Virus record (IMG/VR): IMGVR_UViG_3300014720_000160
Location: 1-26,179 of that record
Length of the DNA: 26,179 nucleotides
From: a virus
Reading direction: 5' to 3' (one strand)
Shown here: one piece after another, positions 12,987-25,503 of the stretch
How the letters are laid out: each line of letters starts with the position of its first letter
Position numbering within the stretch: the first letter of the stretch is position 1
The notes under the pieces: generated by a model
The model's database searches: none
What the model was told of the DNA's origin: nothing
The model's input: only the letters and a program-made list of their open reading frames with translations
Made by a program: the position numbers and the translations under genes

Positions 12987-13826
12987 TTAGAAGGTAGAGT
13001 AGGGGTCAGGGATTCTGCGTGTGTACACAGAGTTCAACACCGCTTGGATTTGCTTTGCATACTCCTGCTTGTATATCTCAGCTTCTCCGTAGCTCTGTTC
13101 TTTGTACTTGGCTTTGTAAGCCGCATAGAAAGCTACAGGCGAGGTGTAGGGGTCTTGAATCTGGTCGGTAGCGTTAGGCGTGTTCAAGCTCAAGGCAGTA
13201 GGCAAGATAGTGCTGTCTATCTCTACGACATACGCTTGGTCAGGAACAGGGCCAACATAGATAGTGTTTTGTCCGTAAACAGAGAAACACACGGGTCTGC
13301 CAACATAGTTTTGCCAGTAGCGCAGTTGAGCGTTGAAGTTTGACCAGGGCAGATACCGCAGAGGAATACGGCTGTTACCCCAGTAAATGTTGACGTTCAG
13401 GATGTCTAGCGTTGTACCAGTAGCAATAGTGGCATAGGGGATGATTTCCGCAGGGCCAGAATACTGCAAAGTAGCAGTGCCATCTGTGAACGGGGCAGAA
13501 GGTGGGAAAGTGTAGCCAGAAGCTGGATAAGGCGGAGCTGTATTACTTAACACACCACTGACAGTTACTTCGTAAATGAAAATGTTATTAAATACAAATT
13601 CGCCAGCAGTCACAGTAGCACCCGCAGTCCATATAGTTGCGGCAACACCTGTACTTGAAATTGGGGTGGCAGTAATTTGAAGGGTACGTAAGCACCCAGT
13701 ATCTCTCGCTACTCGCTCACGGGCATCGTTGATGTAGTCCGTTAGCTCCGAGGTTGTCCAGAAGACAGAGTTTGCATCATGCAATAACCGCTGTACTTCC
13801 GTGATGTAGGAAGAGAGAGTTGCCAT
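12987..13826 (-). CDS. Head-to-tail adaptor (SU10-like adaptor)
   Basis: A 279-residue protein. The N-terminal segment ([44 protein letters not shown], read across residues 1-44) matches the helical start of podovirus adaptor proteins (SU10-type, P22 gp4-like). These bind the portal ring and close the head. A beta-rich middle (60-165) and a helical end with [19 protein letters not shown] follow, as in the family. It sits between head genes and the nozzle-like gene, the usual order portal - capsid - adaptor - nozzle. AAGG precedes the ATG. Confidence in the class is good; the exact subfamily was not tested. Confidence 0.8.
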
Positions 13827-14931: not shown

Positions 14932-15933
14932 TTACAGTGAGAGGTAGTTGTAACCCGTCACCTTGGTCATGGCTTTGGGCTTGACGTTCACCAATTCGGC
15001 AATCATCAAAACCGCACCGACATAACCAATTTGCCAGTTGGGGAGAGTGGACTCAAAGCCTGTAAACACAAACGAACCTTGCTCGTGGATGTACAGAGAC
15101 AAGTAGTTGGTGTTCAGGAAGTACACAGTACCTTCTGGGCAGTAGGGGTCTGGATAGATAGGTACGCCAGCAACCATCAAAGCACGGAAAGCGGCTTGAG
15201 GGCCATTGGTTTCACCGTCAAAACCTGCACCTGGGGTGATAACGTATTGCTCTTGACCAACAAAGTCTTGAGCCAACAGTGTCCAAGTACCAAAACCGCA
15301 AACACCAAAAGAAGGCATTTCTGCACCGTTTTTGACAGTACCAGAGATGTATTGCAGGATGTTTTGACGGGTTGGGTTCACAGAGCCAGCGGCATACTGA
15401 GAGGATTTCCACCAAGTGTAAGAACTACGGTCAATATTGCCGTAAGTACCAGAGTTAGCAACAGCAGCGGGCAAACCGATGAACTGTTGGGTATTGCTGG
15501 TGTTGGTGTACAAGGCCGTTGCCATTGCATCCATCATCACGTTGGTTGCATCGTTCATACGAGCTTCAATCAACGGAATAATGGCCGCATCTTGCTGAAC
15601 TGCGCCTTCCATACCGAGGAAGGGTACGGGAGAAATCATCAGTTTCAGGTCGAATTCAGCGTTGTAAGCACCTTGCTGGACTGACGGTTGGGCAAAAGAG
15701 CCACTGTAGTCAGACCATTGAGCGTTCACAAACTGTGCGCCTTGGACAGGAACGGTTACAGAAGACACACCACCAGAGGCAGACTGACTGTTGGCAATCA
15801 GAGCCGCCATCAAGGGCGTGGAGTTGTAAAGCTGGACAACCAGCTTAGGGATAAAGGCTCTACGAGTTACATAAGTCAGTTCATTGAACTGTGCTGACCC
15901 TGTAGCTGGTAGGATGCCGCCGCCAATAGCCAT
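14932..15933 (-). CDS. Major capsid protein (HK97-like fold expected)
   Basis: A 333-residue protein with a very strong ribosome site (AAGGAGG, four bases from the ATG), as expected for the most abundant virion protein. Features typical of phage capsid proteins are an N-terminal arm (NELTYVTRRAFIPKLVVQLY), TPLMAALIANSQSASGG, a long internal region with EARMNDATNVMMDAMATALY, and a C-terminal domain with GVPIYPDPYCPEGTVYFLNT and FTGFESTLPNWQIGYVGAVL. It lies after a scaffold-like gene and before small head proteins. The fold is inferred from length, sequence style and context; no protease gene is seen, so maturation cleavage, if any, is unclear. Confidence 0.85.
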   Translation of the reverse strand: MAIGGGILPATGSAQFNELTYVTRRAFIPKLVVQLYNSTPLMAALIANSQSASGGVSSVTVPVQGAQFVNAQWSDYSGSFAQPSVQQGAYNAEFDLKLMISPVPFLGMEGAVQQDAAIIPLIEARMNDATNVMMDAMATALYTNTSNTQQFIGLPAAVANSGTYGNIDRSSYTWWKSSQYAAGSVNPTRQNILQYISGTVKNGAEMPSFGVCGFGTWTLLAQDFVGQEQYVITPGAGFDGETNGPQAAFRALMVAGVPIYPDPYCPEGTVYFLNTNYLSLYIHEQGSFVFTGFESTLPNWQIGYVGAVLMIAELVNVKPKAMTKVTGYNYLSL

Positions 15934-17876: not shown

Positions 17877-18055
17877 CTTGAACTCCCATATTGTTTGCGG
17901 TTGGAGTCCCGTTGACTCCTTCCGTACGAGGTTTTAAACCCTGTTTGACGCATTGTCAAGTTGGGTGCTGCCTCATTCCTTTTCAGGGAGGCAGTATCTA
18001 CCCGTGGTTGGTCAGCCGTAGGCTGTGTCATGCCAGCGTTGTTTGGAACCATCAT
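17873..18055 (-). CDS. Small hypothetical protein after portal
   Basis: A 60-residue, polar, probably disordered protein (MMVPNNAGMTQPTADQPRVD..., ending RKQYGSSR). Its ATG overlaps the portal stop (ATGA at 18052-18055), so it is likely translated by coupling. It is rich in Asn, Gln, Arg and Ser with a basic C-terminal half. No family is recognised; a portal- or scaffold-associated accessory is a reasonable guess only. Confidence 0.55.
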   Translation of the reverse strand: MMVPNNAGMTQPTADQPRVDTASLKRNEAAPNLTMRQTGFKTSYGRSQRDSNRKQYGSSR

Positions 18056-19698
18056 CCCACCTTTTTCAAATCTGGTTTACCTTCAGGCTTTTGCGGTTGC
18101 ATTTGTTGCATTTGCTGGGCCATCGCTTGTTGCTCTTCTTGCTTTTGTTGAGCTTTCTTCAGTCGTTCTAACAATAATTGTTTCATTGGGGGTTCAATCA
18201 TGTCAAGCAAGGACTCTTTGTCAATAACGCCAGCTTGGAACAACTCAAACGCCATCTTGCGGCTGTCTTCCATAAAGATGGGAGAATTTGAGTGGGCATC
18301 CACCTTCACCACATAGTCACGGGTGAACTGGTCGGCAATGAATTTCAAGCCATGTGCGTCTGTGTAGTGGGTGTTATCGTAGACCTGCATACATTTCAAG
18401 TATAGGGTAGCCATCTTTTCTAGGCTGTCTTCAATAACAAGCGCACGTTTCTTGGCTCGGCTTGAACCCAGACGGGCAAGTTGAGAAGCGTGACCAGAAG
18501 AGCGCACACCTGCTTCACCACGGCCTTGCAAGACGCTGACGATGCCAGATGCCTCTTCAAACATCAGGTCAATTTCGCCAATTTCACGGAACAAATCAGG
18601 TGGAATAGTTGGTGCTAACTTTTCAACTTTGGCGTTTGGCATATCTGTTGCTAGCAAGCCGCCAGCACGGTTGAGGGCAAAGTTCTTCTCATCCAAAATG
18701 CCTGTAAAGCCAATCAGGGCGGTAGGTGGGCTGACTTGTTTGGACAGCAAGTCCAAGATTTCCGTCATCCGCTTGTTGCGTAACTGCTGGAGGTAGACCA
18801 AACGCTGAACCTCGGACGCACCCCAGTAGTAGTCGTACAGGGGGTTGGGGCAGATTTGGATGAAAGGCAACTCACCTTTCAGGAACATGCTCTCTCCAGA
18901 ACGGTCATAGATGATGACGTTGGGGTCGGCTTTGGTTACAACTTGGTAATCTTTAGTCTCGTCATTCCAAACCCAAAGTTCAATCATCTCGATGGTGTCT
19001 TCGGAGACTTGGGCTTTGTAGGTGGGGTTACCAGTCAAGTCCAGATTAACGTTACCGTACATGGTAGGGTTGGTCTGGGACAAGATGATGCGCTGGATGC
19101 CGTTGGCAATCTCGGTACGCTCATGCTGGGTAGACATGACCCGCTTGACGATTGAGTCCCGCTGTGGATGGGAGTAGAGCCTGTCAAACAACTCGGACTT
19201 GGTGATGTAGTACGAGTGAACAAGGGCTTCTTGCCTGTCTGTGTAGGCACTGTCCTCCCGCAATACGCCAATACAGGCTGGTTCCACCATGTAGGGGTGG
19301 ATGCCGTTGTTGATAACCAGTTTGACAAAGGTTGAGTTGTAGCAGAGTGACCATGTGACTGCGGTTGAGAAGACTTGGTCAGCGTTGCTATTGAGCCATT
19401 CGTCATTGAGGGCTTTGCTGAGAGTTGGGACTTTAATCTGTTCTTGGTCGGAGACAGCGGCTCCAGTGTGGATAGAGAACTTGGTGGTTTCTGCTGAGTA
19501 CAGGAACGAGGTCAGTTGGTCGATATGGGGATAAATCTTGTTGTAAATGGCAGGTACGTCATCAGGAGCGTTACCAAACAGGTAGTAGCTACGCAAGGAT
19601 GAGTAATCGACTTTGCGTTGCTCACGGCTGACGAGGCATTTTTCTATCAAATCCAGATAAAACTGTTCTCTGGCAATTGGCTCTTTAGGTATTCTCAT
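18052..19698 (-). CDS. Portal protein
   Basis: A 548-residue protein with the usual size and sequence style of podovirus-type portals. The N-terminal half includes DDVPAIYNKIYPHIDQLTSF and a segment NSNADQVFSTAVTWSLCYNS. The core has GELPFIQICPNPLYDYYWGA, SEVQRLVYLQQLRNKRMTEI and LDLLSKQVSPPTALIGFTG, the wing/stem/clip-type succession typical of the family. The C-terminus is a Gln/Met/Lys-rich coil (QKQEEQQAMAQQMQQMQPQ). It forms the dodecameric DNA entry/exit ring and docks the terminase and the adaptor. The ATG overlaps the upstream stop (ATGA). Confidence 0.9.
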   Translation of the reverse strand: MRIPKEPIAREQFYLDLIEKCLVSREQRKVDYSSLRSYYLFGNAPDDVPAIYNKIYPHIDQLTSFLYSAETTKFSIHTGAAVSDQEQIKVPTLSKALNDEWLNSNADQVFSTAVTWSLCYNSTFVKLVINNGIHPYMVEPACIGVLREDSAYTDRQEALVHSYYITKSELFDRLYSHPQRDSIVKRVMSTQHERTEIANGIQRIILSQTNPTMYGNVNLDLTGNPTYKAQVSEDTIEMIELWVWNDETKDYQVVTKADPNVIIYDRSGESMFLKGELPFIQICPNPLYDYYWGASEVQRLVYLQQLRNKRMTEILDLLSKQVSPPTALIGFTGILDEKNFALNRAGGLLATDMPNAKVEKLAPTIPPDLFREIGEIDLMFEEASGIVSVLQGRGEAGVRSSGHASQLARLGSSRAKKRALVIEDSLEKMATLYLKCMQVYDNTHYTDAHGLKFIADQFTRDYVVKVDAHSNSPIFMEDSRKMAFELFQAGVIDKESLLDMIEPPMKQLLLERLKKAQQKQEEQQAMAQQMQQMQPQKPEGKPDLKKVG

Positions 19699-20201
19699 TT
19701 TCTCACCTGTAAGTTTTCATGGTCTGCCATGTAACTAGCGGCTCTGGGGCCTTGCAAGTCACCCGCTGCTTTTGGATTTATGCCCACGGATTCTCCGTTA
19801 ATAGATTTAAATTGTCCACCTAGCACGGATTTCATGCTGATATTTGACCCGCCACCCCAGATGACGGAGTCACCAGGGCGTGTTTGCTTCTGTTGTTGCT
19901 GGTTTTGGGCTTGCATAGCGTCTGTAGCTTCGGCAAACTGCTTGTCTGTCAGCTTATTCTTGCGTTTCATGTAGCCAGTCTGGTGTTCACCAGCTTTTGT
20001 AGACTTGATGTCTGTCATGTCGTACTCGATAGCCAGTTGTTTCAAGTTATTGTCGGTTGCAGACGTTTTTGGTGACTTTGTGCCCACGGGTTTGAGATGA
20101 ACAACAGAAATGTCGCCTTTACACAGTTTCATAGGGCATGTAGGCTCCCAAGCCTCAAAAATACCGTGGTTTGTGCAGTAATAGTCTCTCAAAATACCCA
20201 T
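19695..20201 (-). CDS. Zn-ribbon-type protein upstream of portal
   Basis: A 168-residue protein. The N-terminus (MGILRDYYCTNHGIFEAWEP, then TCPMKLCKGDIS) has a Cys/His set (C9, H12, C22, C27) that suggests a small zinc ribbon. The rest is polar and probably disordered, with a Gln-rich stretch (QAQNQQQQKQ). AGGGGG precedes the ATG, and the stop overlaps the portal start. Such proteins next to the portal gene occur in several phages without assigned function. It may bind nucleic acid or the packaging machinery (inference). Confidence 0.6.
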   Translation of the reverse strand: MGILRDYYCTNHGIFEAWEPTCPMKLCKGDISVVHLKPVGTKSPKTSATDNNLKQLAIEYDMTDIKSTKAGEHQTGYMKRKNKLTDKQFAEATDAMQAQNQQQQKQTRPGDSVIWGGGSNISMKSVLGGQFKSINGESVGINPKAAGDLQGPRAASYMADHENLQVRK

Positions 20202-20203
20202 TT

Positions 20204-20593
20204 TTACCCCCTTAGTGCTTCGTCAAGTGTCATTTCGCTGTAATCGTGTCTGTTTGTCATCCCAACCTTGATTTTTATGCCATCAGAAGTGACTTGTAAC
20301 CCCATTTTTGGCATGTAAACGGGCTGTGCTTCTTTCCTGTAGTCCACATAGCGGGTGTTATCCCGCTTTTTCATAATCTTCACATTCCCTGCTTTCCACT
20401 GTTGGTAGGCTTTACTTACCCTTGTTTGCACTCTGGCGGTCAGTGGTTCACGGTTGTAGATGAAAACATCGTGAAAATGACCGTGACTTATGCCCGCAAG
20501 TTCGCAAAAAAGGGCGATAGAGATGCCTCTTTCCTTGTCAGCGTAGAACCGCTGCATGTGTTGGGTGAGTTCACGCTTGCTTAACGGGGGCAT
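20204..20593 (-). CDS. Small HTH (XRE-like) protein in packaging module
   Basis: A 129-residue protein. Residues 23-70 read as a helix-turn-helix of XRE type: ISIALFCELAGISHGHFHDV, then REPLTARVQTRVSKAYQQW (the pattern LAELAGIS...PLT...Q.RLSKA). The C-terminal half is basic with beta segments. It overlaps the glycosyltransferase-like gene by 23 bases and has GGAG eight bases before the ATG. It could be a regulator, or a DNA-binding small terminase partner, but small terminases usually lie before TerL. The exact role is unknown. Confidence 0.65.
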   Translation of the reverse strand: MPPLSKRELTQHMQRFYADKERGISIALFCELAGISHGHFHDVFIYNREPLTARVQTRVSKAYQQWKAGNVKIMKKRDNTRYVDYRKEAQPVYMPKMGLQVTSDGIKIKVGMTNRHDYSEMTLDEALRG

Positions 20594-21377
20594 ATCTGTA
20601 CTCCAAGGTGTAGCCTTTGTCCTGTAACCAGTTTAAAAACTGGATTTCTCCGTGAGCAGTGGTCGGGTCGGAAGGCACAACGATGTGGTTATCACTGACG
20701 AGCTTCCTTGTCTGGGCATGGTGGCCTAGCAAAGAGTCAAAGTCAAAGCCTTCTTCGTGGAAACCACGGCCTACGTACTCAATACTGAACTGTTTGGCAA
20801 TGTCGATAGGGCAATACTTGTAGCCATAGCCTTCAAGGACGGGCTTTAGGATTGCAGACAACTGAGCATCCTCGTTCCAGCCATGTATCTCGTTGCTGTT
20901 CAAGTGCATGATGCCGTGCTTGTTACAGGCTTCTAGGAAACGCTTACTACGCAGGGAAAACCCTCCGTTTTGGACAACAGAAACAGGCTCTGTGGTTTCA
21001 GTCCACGCAAAGTGCAGGTACAGGTGACCATTACCAAAAGCGCAGTGTGAGGGTGCGCCTATGTAGTCATAGTCATAGTATTCAGGTTTGAAGTTATTGC
21101 CGTTCAACACCCAACCGTCATCTTGGACAATCAGGCAGAAGTCTGTTTCTATATACGAATACAGGCTGTGCATAGTAAACAGGGAATACCCTAAGTAATC
21201 TATGGGGTGGCAACGCTTCCACTCTACGCCTTCTGGCATGTTCTCTGGCTTTTCGACAGAGATGAGCAACCCACGGCTACCTGGCAACTCACGCACAGAC
21301 CTGACGATAGAGGGCAGGGCAGAGGCTCCGTTGTTGTGTCCGTAGATGGACACGATTGTGAGTTGGCTGTGGTTCAT
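20571..21377 (-). CDS. DUF5672 glycosyltransferase-like protein
   Basis: A 268-residue protein. I recognise the DUF5672 pattern: YLGYSLFTMHSLYSYIETDF followed by CLIVQDDGWVLNG, YDYIGAP, VVQNGGFSLRSKRFLEACN and GWNEDAQLS. The QDD, NGGFSLRS and ED motifs resemble nucleotide-sugar and metal-binding sites of GT-A type glycosyltransferases. The ATG overlaps the TerL stop (ATGA), so it is cotranslated with the terminase. A glycosyl-transfer role (modifying a virion protein, DNA or host surface) is inference. It is an unusual insertion in a packaging module. Confidence 0.8.
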   Translation of the reverse strand: MNHSQLTIVSIYGHNNGASALPSIVRSVRELPGSRGLLISVEKPENMPEGVEWKRCHPIDYLGYSLFTMHSLYSYIETDFCLIVQDDGWVLNGNNFKPEYYDYDYIGAPSHCAFGNGHLYLHFAWTETTEPVSVVQNGGFSLRSKRFLEACNKHGIMHLNSNEIHGWNEDAQLSAILKPVLEGYGYKYCPIDIAKQFSIEYVGRGFHEEGFDFDSLLGHHAQTRKLVSDNHIVVPSDPTTAHGEIQFLNWLQDKGYTLEYRYAPVKQA

Positions 21378-23128
21378 TGTCCGTACATTCCGATTCTTTT
21401 AAGGTAGTCACTGACATTTCTGCCTACAGCGATTTGTTCAGGGCTGTAGGATTCTTGAGCCGCACTGACATTGCGAGATAGTTTGTGGGCTATCAAACGA
21501 GGTTGAATCTGTTCGGCATAGGCAACGGCAGCGAGGGCAGAGGCAATCACCCTGTCATCTTTACCACGACCAGGTGCGCCCAAGAAGCCACCTTCTCGCA
21601 CGATACCTTTCATCTCTTCTAGGGAATCCATGCTGAGAATGCCCATCATGCCCCGCTCAAAGTAGTCTTTCATGTACTGCAACATGCGTTCTTTGCTGTT
21701 GGCGGTGGTGAGGTAGCCGATACTGTTGGACAGGCCTCCAAGGGTGTCGTTACGCCTCCAGATGTAGTTGGTCATGCTACCTAGCACATCCATCAAATCC
21801 CGCCCTGTAGCCCCGCCCATAGAGGTTGCCAAGCGTTTTAAGTTCCGCAACTCGTTAATAACGGCTTGACCTGGCCCGTTAACTTCGAGGTTAAGGGTTG
21901 AGTTCTTGTATGCGCCGGCAAGGTGTGCAATCACCCACGCAAACTGGTAGGTGTTCAATTCCGAGGTGGCAAACTCAGCAACTTGGTCAAGCCCATCTGC
22001 GTAGCATCTGTAGACTTGAATACAGAATCTATCTGCCCAATCAGAGCTACCATAAGCGGGGTCAGCACCAATAACGTAGTAAGCAGAATCAATAGGCTCT
22101 TCCCATACCTTGAGAGTACCGAGTCTTTCAGTAGATTTAAGAACCTCTGTATCTTGGAACAGTTGACCAAACGCATATCTGTAGTAATCACATTCTGTAT
22201 TCTTGCTCTTCTTGGCAGCTTCTGTACACCGTGTGTGTGAGAAGAAGGAGGAGCCTGTCATCACAAAGGCATAGTCTTCAGTGGGTGGAAACTCTTGATA
22301 CATCAAGGCATCGTCCTTGATACCTTCTGCCATCTTCCACCGCCACCAAGCCATTTGACGAGAGTTAATCTCAAAGCCGTAGAGCTTCTTTATATCCTTG
22401 TGCCACTCTTTCTCTTCCCCTGTCAACTTGCCATCCCAGTACACCTTGTAGATGTTGGAGTCAGCAGGGACGGTGTAATACTCATTACGCCACCAGCCAC
22501 AGAAGATAGCCCTCTGTGTCCTTGCTCGCTTGGCAGTCTTATACATGTCGTGAAACATGTTGAAGCCTTGAGCCGTACTCTCAAACATGTACAGCCTCTC
22601 TGCATTCTTTTCAGCAAGTGAAGCTATCAGGGAGGCTAAACCCTCTTCGTTACCCCACGATGCTGTCTCTGTGCCGTGTAGATAGGTAATAGCCTTGCCT
22701 TGCCCCAGACGAGACTTGTTGCCAGCGATTTGGTAAAACAACCTACTTCTGTTTTTCAACACCATCTGGTTTCTATTATGGGCAACAAGTGGAATCTTGT
22801 ATTCCTTGGGCAACCCTTCCATGTACATAGCCAACGTGCTTCTGAACATATCCCTGTTCTCTTCTGTATCTGCTACGAGTGTGCCTTGCCAGCCAGGGTG
22901 GGTGAACTGCCAGTAGAGGTCAAGAGCCAAGGAAATAGTGGTGATACCAAGTTGTCGGCCTTTAAGGATGACAAAAAAGTGGATGTCATTGTCTAGTCCC
23001 TTTTGTATCTCTTCCATGACATACGTCTGTGTACCAAGTAGATGCTTCATTTTCTGAAGCCCATTTTCTTTGGTTTCCACCTTTAACTCTGCACAGAATT
23101 TATAGAATTTTTGTAAGTCGAAATTCAC
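21374..23128 (-). CDS. terL: Terminase large subunit
   Basis: A 584-residue packaging motor. The Walker A-type loop is LKGRQLGITT (about 55-64). A Walker B-like region is YLHGTETASW (149-158, catalytic Glu probably E154), and the coupling motif is FESTAQG (181-187). The C-terminal RNase H-like nuclease has GADPAYGSSD (D355), LNLEVNGPG (E414) and GKDDRVIASAL (D523/D524). It cuts concatemeric DNA and pumps it through the portal. The start is GTG, overlapping the stop of the HNH gene (GTGA), so it is translationally coupled. The Walker B position has HGTE rather than the usual DE pair; the HxSE-like form occurs in some terminases. Confidence 0.95.
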   Translation of the reverse strand: MNFDLQKFYKFCAELKVETKENGLQKMKHLLGTQTYVMEEIQKGLDNDIHFFVILKGRQLGITTISLALDLYWQFTHPGWQGTLVADTEENRDMFRSTLAMYMEGLPKEYKIPLVAHNRNQMVLKNRSRLFYQIAGNKSRLGQGKAITYLHGTETASWGNEEGLASLIASLAEKNAERLYMFESTAQGFNMFHDMYKTAKRARTQRAIFCGWWRNEYYTVPADSNIYKVYWDGKLTGEEKEWHKDIKKLYGFEINSRQMAWWRWKMAEGIKDDALMYQEFPPTEDYAFVMTGSSFFSHTRCTEAAKKSKNTECDYYRYAFGQLFQDTEVLKSTERLGTLKVWEEPIDSAYYVIGADPAYGSSDWADRFCIQVYRCYADGLDQVAEFATSELNTYQFAWVIAHLAGAYKNSTLNLEVNGPGQAVINELRNLKRLATSMGGATGRDLMDVLGSMTNYIWRRNDTLGGLSNSIGYLTTANSKERMLQYMKDYFERGMMGILSMDSLEEMKGIVREGGFLGAPGRGKDDRVIASALAAVAYAEQIQPRLIAHKLSRNVSAAQESYSPEQIAVGRNVSDYLKRIGMYGQ

Positions 23129-23655
23129 AGCAGGTATCCTTTGCTTTGCATAAAGGCCACAGGGTCTTTAGCTAATTTTGTTAAGTTGCATGTCGGACAT
23201 AGCAACTGGAGATTGTTGAACTCGTGCTTACCACCTTTGGACAAAGGCTTGATGTGGTCAATGTGGTACTTGATAAGCTCTTGTTTGCAAACAGGGCATT
23301 TATTCTTCTGTAGGCTTCGCAATTTGCGGATGTCAGATAACGGTATGTGGTTTGGCAAGCCAGCGGCTCTACGCTTGTGAGCCTTGAGATTCCACAATTC
23401 CTTGTTTGATTCGTAATACTGTTTTTGTTGGGCAAGAAGCCTGTCTCTGTTTTCACGGTAGTATTCCCTTGCTCTAGCAGCCTTTCGCTCTTTAATCTGG
23501 TCTTTAACTTCCAAATACTGCTTGGCTTTTTTTTCTTTGTTTCGTTCGTAGTGGCTTTTAGAACATCCAACGCACATACTGGTACTGACGTATCTTGTCC
23601 CATCATGCCCTTTGCCGCAGACTGCACCCAAATAAGTTCCTGATGATTTACGCAT
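23125..23655 (-). CDS. Zn-finger HNH endonuclease directly upstream of TerL
   Basis: A 176-residue protein. The N-terminus has a C13, H17, C28, C31 finger. Residues 35-100 are a basic coiled stretch. The C-terminal HNH domain has CPVC (120-123), HIDHIKPLSKGGKHEFNNLQ (131-150) and LCPTC (152-156). HNH proteins next to terminase genes are known to take part in DNA cutting during packaging in some phages (for example HK97 gp74). Others are homing enzymes. The coupled GTGA overlap with terL favours a packaging role here, though mobility cannot be excluded. Confidence 0.8.
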   Translation of the reverse strand: MRKSSGTYLGAVCGKGHDGTRYVSTSMCVGCSKSHYERNKEKKAKQYLEVKDQIKERKAARAREYYRENRDRLLAQQKQYYESNKELWNLKAHKRRAAGLPNHIPLSDIRKLRSLQKNKCPVCKQELIKYHIDHIKPLSKGGKHEFNNLQLLCPTCNLTKLAKDPVAFMQSKGYLL

Positions 23656-24837: not shown

Positions 24838-25503
24838 ATGCGAATTATACCGATTCACGTCATGACAAAAGCACAGGCCAGCACGGTAGCTGGCTCTGTA
24901 ACGCAAACTACCAAGATGCCGTGTAAAAGCTACAGTTTGCCTACCGTAGCTTGTATCACAGGCTATAAGATGAGCAAAATAGCTGGCTCTATTTGCTCTA
25001 CATGCTATGCGAATAAGGGTAACTATAAAGCATATGCAAACCACATAGAACCAGCACAGCACGCCAGGCTTGATTCGCTGACTAGTGAATTATGGATTTC
25101 TGCTATGGTAGCTCATATAGCTAACGATAGCTATTTTCGCTGGCATGACAGCGGTGATTTACAGGGCCTGTGGCATCTTGAAAAAATAGCACGGGTGGCA
25201 GAGTCAACCCCTGGCTGCAAACACTGGCTGCCGACCAGGGAATATTCAATTGTCAAAGCATACATAGCTAAACACGGTGCACTACCTAAAAATCTAATCG
25301 TTAGACTCTCTGCTATGTACGTTGACAAGAAAGTGACTATTCCAGCCAGTCTACAAGGCCAGGCTAACGTAACAGTGTCTAACGTACATACCAGCACAGC
25401 GACTGTGCACGGGTTAGAGTGCCATGCACCTAAAAACAATGGCGCATGTGGAGAGTGTAGGGTTTGCTGGTCTACAGAGCCAGTGAGTTATTTGGTTCAT
25501 TAA
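24838..25503 (+). CDS. GP88-like cysteine-rich phage protein
   Basis: A 221-residue protein. The motifs KMPCKSYSLPTVAC, GSICSTCYANKGNY (C53, C56), RWHDSGDL (101-108), CKHWLPTREY (127-136) and LIVRLSAMYVD (153-163) match the pattern of the mycobacteriophage gene-88 family as I recall it; its function is unknown. Near the C-terminus C195, C204, C207 and C210 form a possible metal or Fe-S site. GGAGGA lies eight bases upstream. It is the first gene behind the rightward promoter, so it is probably expressed early. Confidence 0.8.
   Translation: MRIIPIHVMTKAQASTVAGSVTQTTKMPCKSYSLPTVACITGYKMSKIAGSICSTCYANKGNYKAYANHIEPAQHARLDSLTSELWISAMVAHIANDSYFRWHDSGDLQGLWHLEKIARVAESTPGCKHWLPTREYSIVKAYIAKHGALPKNLIVRLSAMYVDKKVTIPASLQGQANVTVSNVHTSTATVHGLECHAPKNNGACGECRVCWSTEPVSYLVH

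Follow-up and report, generated by a model that had tools for sequence, protein, structure and literature searches.

A DUF5672 gene predicted to encode a GT-A glycosyltransferase beside the large terminase gene of an uncultured phage

The DUF5672 gene and its packaging module

The window analysed here is the whole 26,179-nucleotide stretch of viral DNA held in IMG/VR record IMGVR_UViG_3300014720_000160, and it carries a packaging module that is ordered, in the direction of transcription, as HNH endonuclease, terL, DUF5672 gene, ORF129, ORF168 and portal, followed by the capsid protein and an SU10-type adaptor (Table 1). An earlier note on this DNA had placed the DUF5672 gene correctly without giving its strand, which is minus: the ATG lies at position 21377, the stop at 20571 and the reading frame is intact. 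The ATGA overlap with terL that had been described is exactly 4 nt long (21374–21377, TCAT on the plus and ATGA on the minus strand), and on its other side the gene overlaps ORF129 by 23 nt. The match to Pfam DUF5672 (PF18922) covers residues 65–202 of the protein with an E-value of 5.4e-17 and 62.4 bits, against a curated cut-off of 24.4 bits; searches of the 268-residue protein with PHROG and NCBIfam models gave no match. In case of the genes that follow, the portal and the gene order agree with the earlier description, whilst its labels for ORF129 ("HTH") and ORF168 ("Zn-ribbon") found no support, neither protein having a family match in Pfam, PHROG or NCBIfam. A plus-strand gene at 24838–25503 of the window matches Pfam GP88 (E 1e-23).

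Table 1. Features of the window referred to in the text.
Feature	Coordinates	Strand	Basis or remark
SU10-type head-tail adaptor, lineage marker	12987..13826	-	Pfam
Major capsid protein, candidate glycan acceptor	14932..15933	-	
Portal protein, SU10/P22 type	18052..19698	-	Pfam scores slightly below cut-off; PHROG portal
ORF168, 168 aa, conserved; N-terminus with Cys/His	19695..20201	-	
ORF129, 129 aa, conserved; closes cargo slot on side away from terL	20204..20593	-	
DUF5672 gene, predicted GT-A glycosyltransferase, 268 aa	20571..21377	-	Pfam, AlphaFold model, motifs
terL, large terminase subunit, 584 aa	21374..23128	-	
HNH endonuclease	23125..23655	-	4-nt overlap with terL start

The window belongs to a family of small phages that is mainly known from environmental sequence. 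Its nearest GenBank genomes are those of phages MW202753 and MW202825 (Manatee Spring), which share the module order and have capsid proteins 91% and 89% identical to that of the window; the slot between terL and ORF129 is empty in MW202753 and is filled by a SAM methyltransferase gene in MW202825. A prophage-based search for a host using the capsid protein returned a single weak match (29% identity) in 399 genomes from the order of Paraburkholderia.

Predicted fold and catalytic motifs

In order to gain insight into the likely function of the protein, an AlphaFold2 model was computed from an alignment of 34 diverse DUF5672 homologues, reaching a mean pLDDT of 93.8 and a pTM of 0.91. Comparison using Foldseek and VIA gave GT-A enzymes as the top matches of this confident model, as the earlier description of the gene as glycosyltransferase-like had anticipated: the PDB matches listed for the model are GT-A enzymes, comprising chondroitin synthase, glycogenin (Z 12.2, 209 residues, 4.0 Å), alpha-1,3-galactosyltransferase, bacterial GT6, LgtC, LARGE1, UGGT and PBCV-1 A064R-D1, a capsid glycosyltransferase (Z 11.6). 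Among predicted viral structures, matches of the model included giant-virus DUF5672 proteins as well as proteins carrying glycosyltransferase or sugar-epimerase names. A sequence search of the PDB with the DUF5672 profile gave no significant match, so that it is the fold comparison, the motifs and the context that carry the assignment. On these grounds we regard the DUF5672 product with high confidence as a predicted glycosyltransferase.

Four features are considered core to GT-A enzymes: the DxD motif, the G-loop, the xED catalytic base and a C-terminal histidine (PMC7185993). Counterparts of all four were assigned by sequence position and spacing, namely QDD (residues 85–87, within QDDG 85–88), NGGFSLRS (137–144), NED (168–170) and His 220 (within GHH 218–220), and the three motifs that had been named earlier (QDD, NGGFSLRS and ED, the last as NED) are thus all present. 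Across 120 sequences, QDDG is found in 115, the G-loop counterpart NGGFSLRS in 114, NED in 115 and GxH in 119. The fold and the layout of the catalytic motifs resemble those of glycogenin (GT8), GT6 and LgtC at an identity of only ~6–14%, with the difference that in DUF5672 a glutamine replaces the first aspartate of the canonical DxD; distant homologues show QYD or QDH at this position. Pfam states no function for PF18922, whose QDD, NGG and ED pattern the window protein matches. The suggestion that the enzyme is probably active was borne out at the level of sequence: with the motifs kept in ~95% of the 120 sequences and a median dN/dS of 0.11, the protein is apparently active. Phage-encoded glycosyltransferases are a known kind of enzyme, of which the DUF5672 protein is a further member, and a likely activity can be proposed for a family that is of unknown function in Pfam and is missed by PHROGs.

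Distribution, selection and cargo at the terL flanks

A protein search of viral contigs with patterns from close relatives found 106 DUF5672-related stretches, and an alignment-based search found at least 531. Dozens of separate contigs show the order terL-DUF5672-ORF129-ORF168-portal, far more than chance would give, and within the window's lineage this order is retained by most members down to ~73% identity in terL and 47–60% in DUF5672. No broken copy was present among the 125 distinct complete ones, every one of which is intact (three short entries, which are distant homologues with a partial match, lie outside this set), so that the gene is neither confined to one contig nor degraded in relatives. 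Relative to the window copy, the median dN/dS of DUF5672 is 0.11, compared to 0.04 for both terL and portal: the gene is under long-term purifying selection as judged from these substitution rates, maintained and yet evolving faster than these two genes.

In order to describe what occupies the flanks of terL, we used a terL-selected sample of 80 loci, to which all frequencies quoted are limited because loci L163–L234 had been fetched with DUF5672. The slot between terL and ORF129 holds DUF5672 in 25 of the 80 loci, nothing in 42, a SAM methyltransferase of ~210 residues that is unrelated to DUF5672 in four and an ORF of ~60 residues in five, and was unseen in the remaining four. The ~60-residue ORF, which is without family match, lies at L100:2505-2681 and also occurs in L101, L108, L109 and L116. 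Directly upstream of terL, many loci with an empty slot exhibit a gene matching Pfam GT2 (22 loci), a gene for a protein of ~221 residues (18 loci: L154:2399-3064 and 17 others) or both, and the one adjoining terL runs into the terL start with an overlap of 1 nt, 4 nt or longer, in case of the ~221-residue protein mainly through ATGA. This protein has no Pfam match; its model (pLDDT 82) matches GT-A enzymes, for example TarP and polypeptide GalNAc-transferases. In this lineage a glycosyltransferase gene beside terL is common, contrary to the claim that packaging modules rarely carry a sugar-transfer enzyme.

The two arrangements excluded one another in these data: where the upstream region is visible in the terL-selected set, upstream glycosyltransferases occur in none of 21 DUF5672 loci versus 27 of 38 empty-slot loci, and a PF00535 search of 30 records gave matches over the cut-off only in those lacking DUF5672. 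On the terL tree (63 rows), DUF5672 shows ~3 changes and the upstream-glycosyltransferase group four, so that the mutual exclusion, real as it is in the data, goes back to a small number of independent switches. In 11 relatives the slot is empty and a glycosyltransferase beside terL was likewise not seen, indicating that the function is dispensable at this position. That the upstream glycosyltransferases functionally replace DUF5672 appears moderately probable.

Placement of the gene is also variable. In L204, L215 and their relatives, a methyltransferase gene and DUF5672 lie upstream of terL, and this form groups with L193; a methyltransferase of the L204/L215 type comes after DUF5672 in L171, L183 and L205, and L175 and L200 have room for one. 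Homologues from other contigs, some of them from large genomes, nest within the lineage of the window, which indicates horizontal exchange. It is very likely that DUF5672 is an exchangeable cargo of the terL flank, which points to widespread uncultured phages having in common a glycosylation locus whose content is exchangeable. A stronger proposal is that the terL junctions are a dedicated exchange site associated with homing endonucleases, where non-homologous glycosyltransferases, methyltransferases and sugar-nucleotide enzymes would be swapped such that each phage carries one decoration function, co-expressed with the packaging motor, and could switch its coat chemistry; we consider this unlikely. 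We found no description of the swapping of unrelated glycosyltransferases and methyltransferases around terL in the open-access literature, which does not by itself prove that there is none.

Some DUF5672 loci carry an additional gene, for deoxysugar synthesis or for a methyltransferase. RmlC (dTDP-4-dehydrorhamnose 3,5-epimerase) is encoded at L084:5540-6001 (PF00908, E 2e-32), overlapping the terL start, and also lies directly upstream of terL in L005, L010 and L011; all four loci are close relatives of the window and DUF5672-positive. A methyltransferase gene adjoins DUF5672 in L171, L204, L205 and L193, and a search of the window fragment for a methyltransferase gave no match. In L193, a viral contig without recognisable lineage terL, DUF5672 follows a SAM-methyltransferase-like gene and an Anp1-like glycosyltransferase (weak match). 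A Bacteroidia genome (L157:7824-9200) encodes DUF5672 with a GT2 domain fused at its C-terminus, which strongly hints at the function. Distant from terL in close relatives, a methyltransferase-like frame of ~160 residues lies at G003:C1:18276-18614 and in similar places in other DUF5672-positive records.

Possible target of the enzyme

The best explanation in our view, to which we give slightly less than an even chance, is that a late-expressed glycosyltransferase decorates a virion protein using a host nucleotide sugar; for the target taken by itself, a virion protein has an even chance. The DUF5672 product would be a soluble, metal-dependent GT-A enzyme, as fold and motifs support well, and probably made late and alongside the virion proteins, since its gene overlaps the end of terL and precedes the next packaging gene; it is from this order and overlap that expression is deduced. 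A nucleotide sugar of the host would serve as donor, and since some members carry RmlC this may be a dTDP-deoxysugar such as rhamnose; the acceptor would be a phage structural protein, either directly or by way of a short glycan that it bears, and in members having a methyltransferase this would cap the sugar. In many relatives without DUF5672, unrelated glycosyltransferases at the opposite terL flank, or a methyltransferase, may make up for its absence.

Decoration of the virion is preferred due to the linkage of the enzyme to late structural genes and to the sets of glycosyltransferase and methyltransferase genes that are tied to glycosylation of the actinobacteriophage capsid and tail and of the PBCV-1 capsid. 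In PBCV-1, A064R-D1 is the rhamnosyltransferase for the N-glycan of the viral capsid, and the same polypeptide also contains another glycosyltransferase and a SAM methyltransferase (PMC9614988). DUF5672 shares with A064R the GT-A fold, the viral origin, the company, in some loci (L193), of another glycosyltransferase and of a SAM methyltransferase and, through RmlC in some members, a possible link to rhamnose; it differs in that A064R is a single fused protein from a virus of eukaryotic algae, the likeness being at the level of the fold. For actinobacteriophages, two papers (PMC11600133, PMC13313380) describe glycosyltransferase and methyltransferase genes that accompany virion glycosylation, and cite Freeman et al. 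2023 for mycobacteriophage and actinobacteriophage glycosyltransferases reported to modify the capsid and tail tube. Phage-encoded glycosyltransferases are common to both cases, and those of actinobacteriophages often come with a methyltransferase gene, as do some DUF5672 loci; the phages are different. Several results weigh against this reading. Among the proteins compared, none of the virion proteins varied in step with the enzyme, the capsid protein differing weakly, and no other gene was common to all DUF5672-positive genomes and absent from the eight "negative" ones, one of which (G018) ends at terL with its slot unseen. The glutamine of QDD, the missing methyltransferase match in the window, the few DUF5672 changes on the terL tree and the 11 relatives in which no glycosyltransferase was seen beside terL count on the same side. 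If the particles are glycosylated, coat chemistry would pass between environmental phages by gene exchange, and its influence on adsorption, on the stability of the particle and on evasion of host defences would become testable.

A rather unlikely alternative, albeit the foremost one, is that the enzyme acts late in infection on a glycan of the host surface, either lipopolysaccharide or capsule, and thereby keeps progeny from re-adsorbing to debris or prevents superinfection. Homologues in cyanophages S-B05 and S-H68 lie within polysaccharide-like clusters, with an O-methyltransferase, glycosyltransferases and sugar epimerases around them, a context that fits the preferred reading as well. Homologues in bacteria are found on the chromosome, one of them after a gene that resembles a heptosyltransferase by sequence, and TarP, which the upstream ~221-residue protein resembles, is a wall teichoic acid glycosyltransferase. 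However, DUF5672 overlaps late packaging genes, its product has no apparent membrane segment and, among its neighbours, no gtrABC-type partner such as a flippase or anchor was noticed.

An improbable reading treats DUF5672 and the further inserts as moron genes without relation to one another, which gather at the terL junctions via homing endonucleases; the excess of glycosyltransferases would then reflect chance or shared descent and no common function. HNH or endonuclease VII genes do occur at both junctions, between terL and DUF5672 in L002, L038 and L200 and, in the window, at the other terL flank, where the HNH gene is probably a mobile insert since it is present in few relatives only (L001, L008/L083 and partially L064); the terL tree likewise shows few independent switches. 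Against this, the cargo is strongly biased, as genes of three distinct glycosyltransferase families and of two types of methyltransferase share one place with RmlC, and the purifying selection on DUF5672 is long-term.

Glycosylation of modified phage DNA bases ahead of packaging, which the earlier note had also raised, is very improbable. The hydroxymethyl base is normally made by an enzyme of the thymidylate synthase family, and no such gene (PF00303) was found in 27 records, which include near-complete genomes, the window itself being a fragment. The gene does adjoin terL, and in relative L177 DpdA, of 7-deazaguanine DNA modification, is encoded directly upstream of terL (L177:3520-4245, PF23859, E 2e-40), but in that one locus only, and the methyltransferase and RmlC partners suggest glycans instead. 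Least probable is a catalytically dead GT-A fold serving as a structural or chaperone protein, for which QDD in place of DxD and the QYD or QDH of distant homologues could speak, given that the G-loop, xED and C-terminal histidine are kept in ~95% or more of the copies.

In contigs of other viruses, tandem DUF5672 paralogues were observed alongside small phasin-like genes (L195:929-2750 and L223:2323-4188).
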